A DNA stretch of 64,000 nt from Actinomadura graeca (GTDB lineage: Bacteria > Actinomycetota > Actinomycetes > Streptosporangiales > Streptosporangiaceae), in NCBI RefSeq assembly GCF_019175365.1, contig NZ_CP059572.1, positions 7,378,001 to 7,442,000 on the forward strand, in the 5' to 3' direction. Of the stretch, positions 22,448 to 26,911 are shown piece after piece. The notes below the pieces were generated by a model, which was not told the origin of the DNA, did not search any database, and saw only the letters and a program-made list of their open reading frames with translations. A program made the position numbers and the translations under genes. Each line of letters opens with the position of its first letter. The first letter of the stretch is position 1.

Positions 22448-22478
22448 ACTATGCGAGCTGGAGTGCGCTCCAGGTCAA
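22448..22478 (-). promoter_or_regulatory. MerR-type promoter/operator of the LLM oxidoreductase gene
   Basis: On the minus strand: TTGACC (22478-22473), 19-nt spacer, CATAGT (22453-22448). The perfect palindrome CTGGAGTGCGCTCCAG occupies 22458-22473. An overlong 19-bp spacer with a centred palindrome is the hallmark of MerR-activated promoters. The start codon is about 55 nt downstream. Confidence 0.85.
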
Positions 22479-22676
22479 GCCTCGGCCTTCGCCCTCCTCC
22501 TCGTCTGTACCGCCAGACGGGCGCAGCAACCCTGGTCCCGAGCGATCTCGTCGTGTCCGTAGAGACACCGACTTGCGCGATGGGCCTCGCGGTACACACG
22601 AACGATCATGCTGCGCCTGCCACTGCCCGGCTGGACGTTGCTGCCCAGTGTGATGCGTCAAGTGTGTGAATCGGTG

Positions 22677-22733
22677 GCGCATGTGTGATCCGGCTGTGCA
22701 TGTGCGTTCCGGCGGTGCATGTGCAATCCGGCG
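22677..22733 (+). repeat. 19-bp tandem array (3 units)
   Basis: Three imperfect units of GTGCATGTGCRWTCCGGCG type. They lie in a gap of about 880 bp (22390-23270) that holds no gene; the gap also carries the MerR-type promoter and one copy of the 168-bp palindromic element. Confidence 0.75.
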
Positions 22734-22953
22734 CTTTGGGTGCTCGCCGATGTGTGTGCGTGATGCAGGACGGTGCCCGGCTGCGTCGGCGAGATGGGCT
22801 GACGTCCCGGCGGACGCCCCGGCCTGTGGTCCGTGACTGCCACCTAATTGGCCCACCGAAGTTTCTCGGCTTGTAAAATGCTTCGGCGATCATCTGACTT
22901 TCAAATTTCTATGCCGAGTATCGAGGATCGGATATTCGAAATTGGAGATTCGC

Positions 22954-23121
22954 GGTGGGGGCGGCGCTGCGTACGGGGCCGCCCCTCCAAAGTCAAGGGC
23001 GCTTCGCGTCGCTACGCGATGGGACTCCGTCCCACCCTTGACTTCGGAGCCTCTGCGGCCCCTGGGTGCAGCTCTCATCGGGCAGGCTCCGCCTGCCCCC
23101 GCCCGACGCGCCGCCCCCACC
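22954..23121 (+). repeat. 168-bp palindromic element, copy 1
   Basis: Bounded by 14-bp terminal inverted repeats GGTGGGGGCGGCGC / GCGCCGCCCCCACC. Internal nested hairpins: GGGGCCGC with GCGGCCCC; AAGTCAAGGG with CCCTTGACTT; CGCGT-CGCT-ACGCG; TGGGAC-TCC-GTCCCA; GGGCAGGC-TCC-GCCTGCCC. An inverted copy at 26469-26636 matches at 167 of 168 positions. Small, non-coding and TIR-bounded, it resembles a MITE or REP-like element. No clear target-site duplication is seen. Confidence 0.9.
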
Positions 23122-23234
23122 GCCCCATCAATGCCAAAAGTGGGGATAATTCATCTCAATTCAGACAGCTGTGGTGCTCGGATGTTTTCCTGTCGCGAAG
23201 GTGACAATAGACGAACCTGATTTAAGCGTTGATC

Positions 23235-23263
23235 TTGACCGGGAGGCGATATCATTCGAATAT
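23235..23263 (+). promoter_or_regulatory. candidate promoter of the HNH gene
   Basis: TTGACC (23235-23240), 17-nt spacer, GAATAT (23258-23263). This would start transcription at or next to ATG 23271, giving a leaderless mRNA. Confidence 0.45.
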
Positions 23264-23270
23264 GCGTTCG

Positions 23271-24494
23271 ATGGCGATCGATCTTGATGAGGCGTCCACC
23301 GCGGAAATGGTGAACGCTCTCTCGATGATCGCTGCCGAACTCGCACAGCGGCCCACGCCCGACTCGTCAGCGGCGTGTATGGAACTCACCGAGACCCTCG
23401 CAGCCGCCAGCGACCTGTGCGAAAGCGTCCTTGCCGGGTTCATCGGACGTGTCGACACCCATGGCGAGGTGCAGCGTTGGGGGTTGCCTTCCACCCGAGC
23501 CTGGCTCCGCTCACGGTTGGGCATGCGTGACCACAACGCCAAGCAGCGCCTCACTTCTGCGCGTCAGCGCCACCGCCTGCCCCAGACCACGAAGCTCTGG
23601 GCGGCGGGAGAACTGTCCAGTGACTACGCGGCCACCATCTCCGACGCCGTCGCCCGCCTGGACGACTCCGACTGCGGTGCGGCGGAGAGCCTGCTGCTCG
23701 ACATGACCAGCCAGGGGTTCTCTCCGGGGAAGCTGGCCTCCTTCGGCCGCCGCATCCGCGATGTCATAGCCGAGCGAGACGGCACCGGTCAGGTCGACCC
23801 GGAGTCGAGCCGTGGTTACACCCGCTCATGGATCACCTGTACTCGTTCCTTGGACGGCGGCCGCTACCTCAAGGGCTGGCTCAACGCCGAAGACGCGGCG
23901 GTGTGGGAAGGGACCGTGGCGCCGCTGGCGGCACCTGCCGGGGCCGACGACCATCGCGACCTGCCCGAGCGCACCGCCGCCGCCGTGACCTCCGTCCTGG
24001 CGGGCGGGCACACCGCCACCAAGGTCACCGTCATCTGTGACTTGGAGACCCTCACCGGCGGCACGGCCCCCGCCCGCCTCACCGACGGCACTCCCATACC
24101 CGCCGAACACGCCCGCCGCATCGCTCTGTCGGCCGGGGTGTCCCCTCTCATCCTCGGGCGCGGCCACGTTCCGCTGTACCTTGGCCACCGGCACCGCTTC
24201 GCGAGCCCCGGGCAACGCCGGGTACTGGAGACCCTCTACTCCACTTGCGCCGTTCATGACTGCGAGATTCCGGGCACTCTGTGCGAGATTGACCACGTGG
24301 ACGGCTGGGCGCTCGGCAACAGCCCAACCGACATCGACAAGCTTGCCTTGTGCTGCGGATGGCACAACCGCTTCAAACACACCAACGCTGAACAGATCCG
24401 AATCAGCCGAGGTGCGGACGGCCGTTACATCTACCGTGTCCTGCCGCCGCCAGGAAGCGTCCGCAGGCAGAGAATGGATTCCGAGGGGCTATGA
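23271..24494 (+). CDS. DUF222/HNH endonuclease signature protein (13E12 family)
   Basis: About 407 aa. The N-terminal two thirds is DUF222 (WGLPSTRAWLRSRLGM, GELSSDYAATISDAV). The C-terminal HNH domain has CEIDHVDGWALGNSPTDIDK near residue 345 and CGWHNRFKHT near 365, with the Cys pairs, His and Asn of the nuclease fold. The 13E12 family is expanded in actinobacteria and often lies in mobile or repeat-rich regions; a biological role is not established. ATG 23271 is favoured by promoter spacing, ATG 23262 is the alternative. The gene lies between the two inverted 168-bp elements. Confidence 0.9.
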   Translation: MAIDLDEASTAEMVNALSMIAAELAQRPTPDSSAACMELTETLAAASDLCESVLAGFIGRVDTHGEVQRWGLPSTRAWLRSRLGMRDHNAKQRLTSARQRHRLPQTTKLWAAGELSSDYAATISDAVARLDDSDCGAAESLLLDMTSQGFSPGKLASFGRRIRDVIAERDGTGQVDPESSRGYTRSWITCTRSLDGGRYLKGWLNAEDAAVWEGTVAPLAAPAGADDHRDLPERTAAAVTSVLAGGHTATKVTVICDLETLTGGTAPARLTDGTPIPAEHARRIALSAGVSPLILGRGHVPLYLGHRHRFASPGQRRVLETLYSTCAVHDCEIPGTLCEIDHVDGWALGNSPTDIDKLALCCGWHNRFKHTNAEQIRISRGADGRYIYRVLPPPGSVRRQRMDSEGL

Positions 24495-24649
24495 CTCGCG
24501 TCAACCCCACCGAAAGGCCACGCCACCAAGCCGATGTCCCCCCAACCGGTCAATTGGAGCGGCCTACCTCTCAACCGTGGCATGCCACCAACCGCTGCCC
24601 GCCATCCGCCCTCTCAGTGCGTGTTGATCGATCCTTTTATTGGCACTCG

Positions 24650-25105
24650 AGAATGCGTCGGCCTTGGCGGACGGCGGGCCGTCCGCCACGTGCCAGGCGG
24701 CGGGTCATAAGGCCGATCGCGGCCCACCGAATCATGGCTTCGCTGGTGGCGGGATCGCGTTCGTGGTCGCGTGCCAGCCGCCGGTGTGCGGTCAGCCATG
24801 CCAGAGCCGCTCGACCGCCCACCGGCGCGGGAGCACGGCGAACCCCTCCCGATTCGCAGGCTTGCGGACAAGCCGATCGTGGTGCACAGGCTGTCGCGGG
24901 TCCGCCCCGCCCGCCGTCCTGCTTGGCGGCGCCGGAGCGGCGGGAGCCCAGCAGGCGTTCGGCGAAACTTGCGTCGGCGAACACCAACCGGCAGGTGGGC
25001 AAGGTGCAAGCTGGTGCGGGTGATGGCCGAGCGGGCGCCGCGTAGATCGCCGATGAGCGGCCCGGTGTCCGTGGGCGTCACCGCTAACCGATTGCGCCCT
25101 GTCGG
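24650..25105 (-). pseudogene. degraded IS5-type transposase, C-terminal part
   Basis: Fragments of one transposase appear in three minus-strand frames: RLAVTPTDTGPLIGDLRGA, then TCRLVFADASFAERLL, then GFAVLPRRWAVER, then AWLTAHRRLARDHERDP and EAMIRWAAIGLMTRRLARG. The order is that of IS5-family DDE transposases (VTPADT...DGGYAG...FVVLPRRWVVERT...WLxRxRRLxRDYE). At least three frameshifts and loss of the N-terminal third make it non-functional. No terminal inverted repeats were identified. Confidence 0.8.
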
Positions 25106-25187
25106 AGGCGGTGTACTGGCGCACCGCGTGCTGGAGACGCTGTCGCTCTGACTGGCGCCAGCACCCGTGCGGCGCCACGGCTTGGAG

Positions 25188-25655
25188 AAGGTGAACATCG
25201 TGGATGGCGCGCTGGTGCCCGTGCGAGACCGGCCCCTGGCCGAGCGCAGCAAGAACCGACTACTAGGCCAACACACAGATCGCCATCAGATGCCGACACA
25301 TGCCTGATGGCCGCGGCCGGCGCCCCGCTGTCGGCCAACCATGACGACTGCAAGCCCACTGCGGCTCGGTGATCGACCAAACCCCGCGTGGGCGGCATGT
25401 GATGACCGACGGCGCCCGCCAGGGCAACCCCGGTGTGATCATTCCCGGCGGCAAGCCCTGCGGCAGCGGCGCCCGGGAGCCCTGGCAGATTTCAACTCCA
25501 TGCACCGCAGCGTCCGCGCCCGAACCGGACGAGCCCTGGTCGGGCCGAAGAACCGGAAGACCCTGCGCGACCGCCGTCGTAAGGGCACACCCTGCGGGAC
25601 ACCCCGGCTGGCATCGCCTATCCCCACAACCTAACCGCCACCGCCTGTTGCACCC
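25188..25655 (+). pseudogene. degraded DDE_Tnp_4/IS5-type transposase
   Basis: Opposite in direction to the previous fragment and a different subfamily. Pieces in order: IVDGALVPVRDRPLAE (catalytic-domain start), ADTCLMAAAGAPLSANHDD, QGNPGVIIPGGKP, DFNSMHRSVRAR, KNRKTLRDRRRKG, GIAYPHNLT. They match the usual VDGTLVP...NRNDCKAW...HRxVRARVEH...MKNWKILRDCRxKG...HNL layout but lie in shifting frames with an in-frame stop near 25370. It lacks the N-terminal helix-turn-helix part. Confidence 0.78.
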
Positions 25656-25826
25656 GTCCTGACGCAGTTGGCAACGGCCCATCCGGCCTGCGAGCTACGT
25701 GACAGCCCTTGGTAGCGCAAGGTGAGCAAGGAAGCGTACTCGCGAGGTCAGCCGCTCGACTTGCCCTGGGACGCGAAGTGTGGACGCGCCTTGGAGTGTC
25801 GGTGCGGTGGTGCATGCTCTGGGCCC

Positions 25827-26324
25827 ATGAGCATGAACGGGGAGTACCTGGCGGTCACAGCTGCGCAGCTCGACAAGGCGATCAAAGAACCGGGATGGGC
25901 CTTGAAACTGGCTTACCAGGTCATGGATGCGGAGGGAGAGCCCCAGCGGCCCCCTGCTGAGGCTCGCTGCATGACCACGCATAAAGCGTGGCATGCGATC
26001 GCTTTCCTGCTGGAACGCGCTGGCTTTCGCGACTATATCGTCTACGGTGACCAGGCTCTCACCGATGAGGACTGGGGTTATGGTCCGCCGAGGTATCTGA
26101 CCCCCGAGCGGGTCAGGGAAGCAGCAGATGCGCTTGCGAACCTTTCATACAACGATCTGATCGCCGAGGTGGCTCCTGCGGATCTGTCAGCTGCGGAAAT
26201 CTATCCGTCTATTTGGGACGACGAGGACGCGCTCGAATGGGTGCGTGGCTGGTTCGAGGATCTCGAACCGTTCTTCCGGGCCGCAGCCGGTCGAGGCGAT
26301 GCCATGCTGACCTGGTTGGACTGA
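25827..26324 (+). CDS. DUF1877 (YfbM-like) family protein
   Basis: A 165-aa soluble acidic protein starting MSMNGEYLAVTAAQLDKAI, the standard opening of DUF1877 proteins. It continues with KAWHAIAFLLER and the RYLTPERVREAADALA segment. Function is unknown; some relatives sit in toxin-immunity or T6SS-related contexts, but no such partner is visible here. ATG 25827 has CATGCT 8 nt before it and TTGGAG at 25791, so the mRNA may be leaderless. It lies inside the segment bounded by the 168-bp inverted elements. Its lower GC relative to its neighbours hints at transfer. Confidence 0.85.
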   Translation: MSMNGEYLAVTAAQLDKAIKEPGWALKLAYQVMDAEGEPQRPPAEARCMTTHKAWHAIAFLLERAGFRDYIVYGDQALTDEDWGYGPPRYLTPERVREAADALANLSYNDLIAEVAPADLSAAEIYPSIWDDEDALEWVRGWFEDLEPFFRAAAGRGDAMLTWLD

Positions 26325-26468
26325 CCACGAAGCGCCACTGCTCACTACTTCGCCAGCCCCGCTACTCCGCCACGTCCGCTACTCCGCGATCAACGCGACT
26401 CCGCCGTGGCGTTGGCCTGGTCACGTATGACGAAACGGGACTGCCGGTTGATTTGGCGGACGGGGGAC

Positions 26469-26636
26469 GGTGGGGGCGGCGCGTCGGGCGGGGGCAGGCG
26501 GAGCCTGCCCGATGAAAGCTGCACCCAGGGGCCGCAGAGGCTCCGAAGTCAAGGGTGGGACGGAGTCCCATCGCGTAGCGACGCGAAGCGCCCTTGACTT
26601 TGGAGGGGCGGCCCCGTACGCAGCGCCGCCCCCACC
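26469..26636 (-). repeat. 168-bp palindromic element, copy 2 (inverted)
   Basis: Reverse complement of 22954-23121 with a single substitution. Here the terminal inverted repeat extends by four more bases (GGAC/GTCC outside each end), giving 18 bp. It sits in a 593-bp gene-free gap between the DUF1877 and MerR genes. Confidence 0.9.
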
Positions 26637-26880
26637 GTCCAGGAAGAACGCAGTCTTTTCGGGCGCCCGTGGATAGATGGCTCTGGCAACTTTGACTACT
26701 CGATCTATCACCTTGCACCGCACCATCCCGAAATCGATATGGGTTTTGTGGTCCGCGCTACCAGCGAGGGAGATTCAACGATTATCCGAGAGGGCAGTTC
26801 AGACAACCTGTGCAGAGTCGTGAGGTCATCGTCTGCAACTCTCACCACGCAGGTCCGGGGGAACCGAGCATGAAGGACTG

Positions 26881-26911
26881 TTGACCTGGAGTGCGCTCCA
26901 GGTGGGATTCT
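26881..26911 (+). promoter_or_regulatory. MerR-type autoregulated promoter
   Basis: TTGACC (26881-26886), 19-nt spacer, GATTCT (26906-26911). The palindrome CTGGAGTGCGCTCCAG at 26886-26901 is identical to that upstream of the LLM oxidoreductase gene. GTG 26918 lies 6 nt after the -10 box. Confidence 0.85.

Follow-up and report, generated by a model that had tools for sequence, protein, structure and literature searches.

In a 64,000-nucleotide stretch of the Actinomadura graeca genome (hereafter the window), a multi-branched palindromic hairpin of 170 bp occurs twice in opposite orientation and frames a gene for a predicted DUF222/HNH endonuclease. We call this unit the cassette, and we report that its copies in Actinomadura appear to evolve in concert. 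The gene order at the window locus is CMD (which we take to be a carboxymuconolactone-decarboxylase-like gene), a luciferase-like (LLM) gene, the cassette, a MerR gene, a mycothiol-isomerase-like gene with a Pfam MDMPI_N match, and a gene that is presumably GntR-like.

An earlier note, made from the sequence of the window alone, had described a near-identical palindrome in two opposite copies with terminal inverted repeats and nested hairpins, and this description held. BLASTN aligned the left hairpin (22953-23122, plus strand) with the right one (26468-26637, minus strand) over 170 bp at 99.4% identity with one mismatch, and a repeat search of the window returned inverted arms of 174 nt (22953-23126 and 26464-26637) that are 99% complementary. 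The palindrome contains nested hairpins, its terminal inverted repeat has arms of 27 and 29 nt (85-86%), and its two strands both fold much more stably than shuffled sequences (z-scores of -8.1 and -8.7). The features of the locus are as follows.

22455-22479, no strand: left MerR-operator-like box at the insertion boundary, from comparison with empty sites ("operator" is our interpretation)
22480-26880, no strand: whole segment absent from empty-site relatives, from comparison with 12 empty sites
22953-23122, plus: left hairpin module, 170-bp multi-branched palindrome, upstream of the DUF222/HNH gene and oriented like it
22992-23042, plus: left apical core, GTCAAGGG...CCCTTGAC with two small hairpins, which is common to plasmids of other Actinomycetes
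23250-23255, plus: predicted -10 box TATCAT, 6 nt before the ATG (pattern TANNNT-N5-7-RTG)
23262-24494, plus: DUF222/HNH endonuclease gene, 410 aa, ATG at 23262, Pfam DUF222 E 2.4e-25
24495-26467, no strand: variable 3' stretch of the cassette, with decayed, possibly insertion sequence (IS)-derived DNA and the DUF1877 gene
25827-26324, plus: DUF1877 gene, cargo of the 3' stretch, Pfam E 3.7e-38
26468-26637, minus: right hairpin module, inverted copy with one mismatch to the left, from repeat search and BLASTN
26548-26598, minus: apical core of the right hairpin, placed by register with the left copy
about 26881-26902, no strand: right MerR-operator-like box at the insertion boundary, from the same comparison ("operator" again being our interpretation)

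The note had also placed an HNH/DUF222 gene, a DUF1877 gene and two ruined IS5-type transposases between the copies. The first two were confirmed by the Pfam matches listed above and by an HNH motif, read from the sequence, at the C-terminal end of the DUF222 protein. The transposases were not recovered: the three open reading frame (ORF) pieces from 24637-25631 matched no Pfam family at E ≤ 0.01. A longer, TTG-started ORF of the DUF222/HNH gene begins at 23229. In genome G019 (G and L numbers are our handles for genomes and loci) a 40% relative of the DUF1877 gene occupies the same cassette position (L068:4895-5290), so this cargo may be old.

Association of the hairpin with DUF222/HNH genes

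We searched 149 genomes, the window's own included, for the hairpin at E ≤ 1e-5, and 49 of them had a match. Among 65 Actinomadura genomes, 39 carried both a hairpin match and the nuclease gene, 5 the nuclease only, none the hairpin only and 21 neither (Fisher p 1.1e-12, with related genomes counted as independent). The search scored at most five candidates per genome, and copy numbers of hairpins and nuclease genes are lower bounds. Genome G039 (sp. OS1-43 / A. opuntiae) had 31 hairpin matches, mostly paired as cassettes. The host genome of the window (8.98 Mb, 3 contigs) holds a third full copy, located at 3.56 Mb and likewise upstream of a DUF222/HNH gene; it has two genes of this family, and both have a same-orientation hairpin upstream. 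The third copy, the 49 matching genomes and the empty sites at 12 of 20 loci described below stand against the possibility, raised in the earlier note, that these two copies are the only ones and that relatives lack empty sites.

A same-strand hairpin lay upstream of 79 of the 91 nuclease genes examined in Actinomadura, a non-random sample since most loci were fetched because they bear a hairpin. Three genes had a hairpin downstream only, two of them cut by a contig end, and nine had none; an inverted 3' copy, whole or partial, accompanied 43 of the 91. Where loci were picked by the nuclease alone, an upstream hairpin was present at 10 of 10 genes of G001 (A. nitritigenes), with a downstream hairpin as well at 8 of them, and a hairpin was present at the single further locus (L188, 1/1). 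In G039, 17 of 17 nuclease genes among the matches listed had the upstream hairpin. The distance from hairpin to gene was mostly 100-320 bp, and 0.8-2.6 kb in six loci (L078, L091, L095, L099, L104, L119). We read the palindromes as the end modules of a cassette with the order hairpin, DUF222/HNH gene, variable stretch, inverted hairpin.

The hairpins are themselves entered by other DNA. In G002, four of five hairpins (L085, L129, L130, L131) have an IS4-family element (Nterm_IS4 E 6e-29) inserted at one common position of the stem. Two of the four insertions face each way, and the target duplication is 10 bp long, with 9-10 bases in agreement; the hairpin is thus a repeated target for that element.

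Concerted evolution of the cassettes

Judged from their flanks, ten cassette loci are common to at least two of five species. In a tree of the nuclease genes, which left out 3 of the 91 stretches as shorter than 1000 bp, copies nevertheless grouped mostly by genome. Of 33 pairs of copies that occupy the same locus in different species, 31 had both members closer to their nearest paralogue within the same genome than to each other, and both exceptions involved the G044 copy at locus A. For eight G039-G001 pairs, mean identity to own-genome paralogues also exceeded identity to the counterpart, on both sides. The alternative would be that cassettes reinserted independently at the ten shared loci; gene conversion explains the pattern more simply.

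The fraction of site pairs with four-gamete incompatibility rose with distance within genomes, from 0.42 to 0.69 in G001 (0.61 beyond 700 bp), from 0.50 to 0.72 in G039 and from 0.45 to 0.62 in G008, and was flat at 0.49-0.51 across 32 species represented by one copy each. Furthermore, hairpins belonging to nuclease pairs 72-80% alike were 97.4% identical within genomes (n=36) versus 85.8% between genomes (n=2747), the pairs being non-independent. A separate comparison covered 106 hairpins, those below 146 bp left out. The three hairpins of the window's genome share 98.8-99.4% identity, versus 73% for its two nuclease genes. Because purifying selection alone would keep hairpins alike between genomes as well, and they differ there, copying or conversion is the best reading of the near-identity, as the earlier note had offered among its explanations. 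We take the cassettes to evolve in concert, with the hairpins homogenised more strongly than the nuclease genes.

The suggestion that the hairpin pair could invert the island is supported by comparisons between species at three loci. Relative to orthologous flanks, the cassette is oppositely oriented in G008 (L188) versus G001 (L178) and G039 (L118), in G030 (L069) versus G004 (L080) and G011 (L066), and in G031 (L098) versus G001 (L172). Each inversion was judged from one flank, and since these alignments stop no more than a few hundred bp from the hairpin, the breakpoints would coincide with the hairpins or fall close to them. Orientation at locus X is uniform across all six species with both flanks seen. 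The hairpin pair seems to invert the island over evolutionary time.

Empty sites and the ends of the cassette

We fetched the window locus from 20 relatives, of which 12 were empty, 4 occupied (G025 seen from one side only) and 4 unclear, where a contig ended, MerR had no match or other additional DNA was present. Three further genomes, G000, G019 and G039, were likewise occupied, giving seven occupied genomes in all. At the empty sites, about 100-150 bp separate the LLM and MerR genes, with no hairpin or nuclease match. The absent segment, which in G000 consists of the cassette plus about 470 bp to the left and about 240 bp to the right of the hairpins, extends past the hairpins, so the insertion may at first have been wider than the hairpin pair, or the flanks may have expanded afterwards. 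In G001, G008, G039 and G044, further DNA separates the cassette from the LLM and MerR genes; toward LLM this DNA can be aligned among all four genomes, toward MerR among three of them, and the cassette position is therefore shared. At L162 (G011) and L155 (G015), the LLM and MerR genes are 1.7 and 0.76 kb apart with neither hairpin nor nuclease between them, the spacer consisting of other DNA or remnants.

Unit-to-unit similarity within one genome drops to chance about 40 bp outside the hairpins, and the units therefore have sharp ends. No target-site duplication was found at 22 pairs (22 of the 23 listed, the G044 pair lying too near a contig end), with abutting direct repeats of at most 2 bp and exact ends uncertain by about 40 bp. 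Shared words within 60 bp of the ends averaged 4.6, versus 4.9 in mismatched pairs, and an enrichment of tandem repeats outside the hairpins, suspected by eye, was not supported (p 0.78). A genome-specific 12-mer abuts the outer side of the hairpin: GCACGGCCAACC in 18 of 27 sides in G039 and ACCCGAACACCC in 18 of 23 sides in G001.

The DUF222/HNH nuclease

DUF222 was the only Pfam family of the nuclease protein at E ≤ 0.001. Residues D344, H345, C365, H368 and N369 of the 410-aa protein were invariant in 50 of 50 aligned homologues, chosen among 120 matches listed. The ratio of nonsynonymous to synonymous substitution (dN/dS) was about 0.1 (0.07-0.20 over the comparisons made), and 0.10 between the window's nuclease and the same-locus copy of G019. 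These values indicate a nuclease under purifying selection with an intact motif. Searches of the protein with PADLOC and NCBIfam returned nothing, and a sequence search of solved structures gave no match at E ≤ 1. An AlphaFold model was poor (mean predicted local distance difference test score, pLDDT, 64.7, with most of the HNH part below 50) and had no PDB match at E ≤ 0.001; we drew no inference from it.

In 89 of 91 homologous stretches, a -10-like box preceded an ATG or GTG around the start by 5-7 nt, compared to 6 of 91 after one base shuffle each. With the box just before the start codon, a leaderless mRNA is predicted, starting after the hairpin and not including it. A riboswitch or attenuator in the leader of the HNH gene was considered and rejected as the principal explanation, the box lying after the hairpin in these 89 of 91 genes.

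The hairpin beyond Actinomadura

Fifteen hairpins, six from Actinomadura and nine from other Actinomycetes, share a fold in which 12 of 39 predicted pairs changed on both sides. The compensatory changes follow Watson-Crick pairing, with a total of two G-U and four A-C cells, and point to constraint on DNA strands rather than on one RNA. The outer stem P1 was not seen in the structure of these diverse hairpins; in 106 Actinomadura hairpins it covaries (one pair is G-C in 45 and T-A in 59), with 157 G-T versus 12 A-C cells, the G-T cells falling mostly at two pairs with variant-dependent register. TTGAC is present in the hairpin stem, and inspection by eye revealed no -10-like box in the hairpin. 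Plasmid-type core hairpins, distinct from the 170-bp form, also occur within Actinomadura, at L148 (G020) and G028:C13:25070-25154.

In a class-wide sample, the core region was matched in 17 of 394 genomes at E ≤ 1e-8, two of them Actinomadura; the scan that yielded the loci outside Actinomadura returned at least 120 stretches. In Micromonospora sp. PLK6-60 (L219:2640-6085) and M. veneta (L229, L346, L350), the hairpin ends a conserved segment of about 440 bp, and in PLK6-60 it adjoins RepSA (E 3.6e-110) and an integrase, resembling an actinomycete integrative and conjugative element (AICE). Phages gave no convincing core match, and viral contigs did not match one exact 29-base pattern.

Nineteen plasmid records matched the core at E ≤ 1e-3, and we looked at 18, leaving out Pseudonocardia EC080625-04. 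In 12 of the 18, several of which share a backbone, a distance of 0.2-1.5 kb separates the core from the 5' end of the mobC/relaxase operon; the core is on the side facing away from the relaxase gene and is oriented the same way throughout. Two of these 12 carry just a hypothetical annotation at the mobC position. The other six have no mobC/relaxase operon beside the core, one of them, a Cutibacterium plasmid, being viewed across the record start. In the 12 with the core beyond mobC/relaxase (L032, L033, L375, L377-L383, L386 and L387), a recombinase - Fic - VbhA module follows in several. The core's side of the mobilisation genes is presumably the leading region, the origin of transfer (oriT) not having been located. 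Such places, like the one beside RepSA in PLK6-60, are where DNA passes through a single strand, and they hint at a single-strand hairpin such as a single-strand initiation (ssi)/Frpo-type hairpin or a single-strand origin (sso).

We scanned 30 DUF222 loci, 28 of which belong to other genera, for inverted repeats and folding by a simple procedure, and nothing comparable appeared; the scan is weak, its inverted-repeat part missing the window's own hairpin (L313) and many loci folding equally well. An unrelated 90-nt inverted repeat lies upstream of a DUF222 gene in another genus (L326:754-1143, G074).

Models for the cassette

The architecture, empty sites, sharp ends, concerted evolution, opposite orientations, purifying selection and Watson-Crick compensation are read from sequence comparison. 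For the cause behind them, we give roughly even chances to a hairpin-ended cassette whose within-genome likeness comes from gene conversion set off by its own HNH nuclease at or near the hairpins. The hairpin would be extruded or folded as single-stranded DNA, its apex being common to hairpins near plasmid mobilisation genes, and the HNH protein would recognise it and nick or cut at or near it. Repair of the break from another copy would spread hairpin and nuclease and keep the hairpins near-identical, while mixing nuclease alleles and sometimes inverting the middle of the cassette. The same process may once have carried the cassette to new loci.

Several observations weigh against conversion driven by the nuclease. 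We infer contact between the HNH protein and the hairpin from their association, and recombination by the host could by itself convert repeats. We saw no case of recent spread to new sites, in-frame stops occur in 14 of 88 nuclease stretches, and the closest-paralogue test applied to the 33 same-locus pairs favours paralogues in many-copy genomes. Among the 39 genomes with both partners, G035, G047 and G049 have partial hairpins only, and in G020 the sole match is of core type and about 5 Mb away from the nuclease gene. Nine loci picked as having no known hairpin (L179-L187) showed none even at low stringency (0/9), so the hairpin is not obligatory for the nuclease gene; two of them in G002, L181 and L182, are hairpin-less DUF222/HNH units at separate places that resemble each other closely, with similar DNA upstream as well, and the gene can therefore multiply without hairpins. 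Outside Actinomadura the hairpin survives unaccompanied by the nuclease, which was nearby at 0 of 8 hairpin loci among the matches listed, and M. veneta has six hairpin matches, four of full length.

The main rivals to the nuclease model are two, and they are not mutually exclusive. The hairpin may be an ssi/Frpo/sso-like element, acquired from conjugative or rolling-circle elements, that starts priming or transcription on single-stranded DNA, so that a cassette entering as a single strand would be copied or expressed, conversion being secondary; we hold this at well under even chances. The core beside the mobC/relaxase operon in 12 of 18 plasmids, the neighbouring RepSA and integrase in Micromonospora PLK6-60 and the Watson-Crick compensation with two G-U pairs in all agree with this, whereas the many plasmids sharing a backbone leave few independent cases, no oriT was located, inspection by eye showed no -10-like element in the hairpin, and no relaxase or Rep gene was noticed beside chromosomal cassettes, though no systematic search was made. 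Somewhat more doubtful is the idea that the HNH gene is cargo, with host enzymes breaking the long, near-identical palindromes and RecA repair homogenising or inverting the interior. SbcCD-like host enzymes cut cruciforms, and such a process would explain why hairpins are homogenised more than nuclease genes, why the interior of the cassette occurs either way round and why hairpins persist without HNH in other genera. It fits poorly with 39 genomes having hairpin match and nuclease and no hairpin-only genome, with an upstream hairpin in one orientation at 79 of 82 hairpin-linked genes, and with a nuclease that is under purifying selection and has an intact motif.

Two further explanations appear improbable. 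A strongly folded element that usually lies 100-300 bp 5' of the HNH gene in the same orientation, with compensatory changes in 12 of 39 pairs, recalls a non-coding RNA partner of the protein, like omega-RNA with IscB; we consider this unlikely, as an Rfam search with the hairpin found no family at E ≤ 1, many units carry a second, inverted copy at their 3' end, the same apex occurs on plasmids without an adjoining HNH, G-U and A-C cells number two and four over 15 hairpins, and the predicted HNH transcript begins after the hairpin. Least probable of all is a classical miniature inverted-repeat transposable element (MITE) moved by a DDE transposase encoded elsewhere. The earlier note had proposed an unnamed MITE- or repetitive extragenic palindrome (REP)-type element, and a short, palindromic, dispersed and unnamed element with empty sites is indeed what was found. 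Mobilisation by a distant transposase was not supported: no target duplication was seen at 22 pairs, and the usual partner of the ends is the fixed DUF222/HNH gene that they enclose; moreover, the DDE element found, the IS4-family element of G002, inserts into the hairpin and does not move it.

Beyond the nuclease model itself, we tentatively propose, with rather less confidence than in that model, a new class of transposase-free mobile element, having a DUF222-type HNH engine, large single-strand-folding hairpin ends of plasmid leading-region origin, and nuclease-driven copying that spreads it and keeps the ends identical. Through the hairpin family, chromosomal cassettes are connected with plasmids and with a rolling-circle integrative element, and the family may serve as a marker of single-strand start sites when actinobacteria conjugate.

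Comparison with known systems

Free-standing HNH homing endonuclease genes are spread and homogenised by break-induced copying. The cassette resembles them in its intact nuclease motif under selection. Its copies bear a conversion signature, of which the nuclease may be the cause. The cassette differs in occupying many unrelated loci with its own hairpin ends rather than one allelic site. IscB with omega-RNA differs in that the cassette protein has only DUF222 in Pfam, not RuvC plus HNH, and no Rfam match lies upstream, while MITEs share terminal inverted repeats with the hairpin and differ by the target-site duplication, which was not found here.

In REPtrons, a TnpAREP/RAYT gene is bordered by REP palindromes that are processed as single-stranded DNA (PMC8266576). 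Both systems have a gene for a DNA-processing enzyme bordered by inverted palindromes that also occur elsewhere (PMC8266576). However, the enzyme here is a predicted HNH nuclease (Pfam DUF222 only) and not a HuH Y1 transposase-like protein, the palindrome is 170 bp and multi-branched as against some 20-40 bp for REP, and the gene is multicopy (at least 17 in G039), whereas tnpAREP is in most cases single copy (PMC8266576).

Frpo/ssi single-strand promoters are DNA hairpins in plasmid leading regions (PMC11541004). The core has what may be the matching position on 12 of 18 plasmids, several with related backbones, and has no such position in the chromosomal cassettes. Any likeness would be one of position; no -10 element was seen here by eye, and in Actinomadura the hairpin is chromosomal and tied to a nuclease gene, unlike Frpo/ssi (PMC11541004). 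The main text of that 2024 Nature paper on leading regions contains neither "actinobacteri" nor "actinomycet".

A close parallel for the gene is the 13E12 repeat family. REP13E12 elements of Mycobacterium tuberculosis are described in a 2026 preprint as gene-conversion hotspots lacking defined function (PMC13061034), and they share with the cassette multicopy DUF222/HNH genes (PMC13061034, PMC10589994). They are related to the Actinomadura nuclease by the DUF222 domain, the level at which the two were compared. The sections of these two papers at hand mention no hairpin ends for REP13E12, and no search for them was made there. Among the papers listed on DUF222, 13E12 repeats, HNH and Actinomadura, no title or abstract opening points to such a cassette. 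DUF222 genes were present in 43 of 80 sampled genomes of the bacterial family, with up to at least 24 matches per genome, and the Pfam name is still "unknown function". The gene described here is accompanied by a partner in DNA, its cassette is clean, sites without it exist, and conversion among its copies leaves a signature that can be measured; DUF222 function thereby becomes testable. The conversion reported for REP13E12 (PMC13061034) is in line with the behaviour of the cassettes in Actinomadura, another genus, and the transposase-free reading, if true, would give the large DUF222/13E12 family of actinobacteria, to date without a function, its first mechanism.

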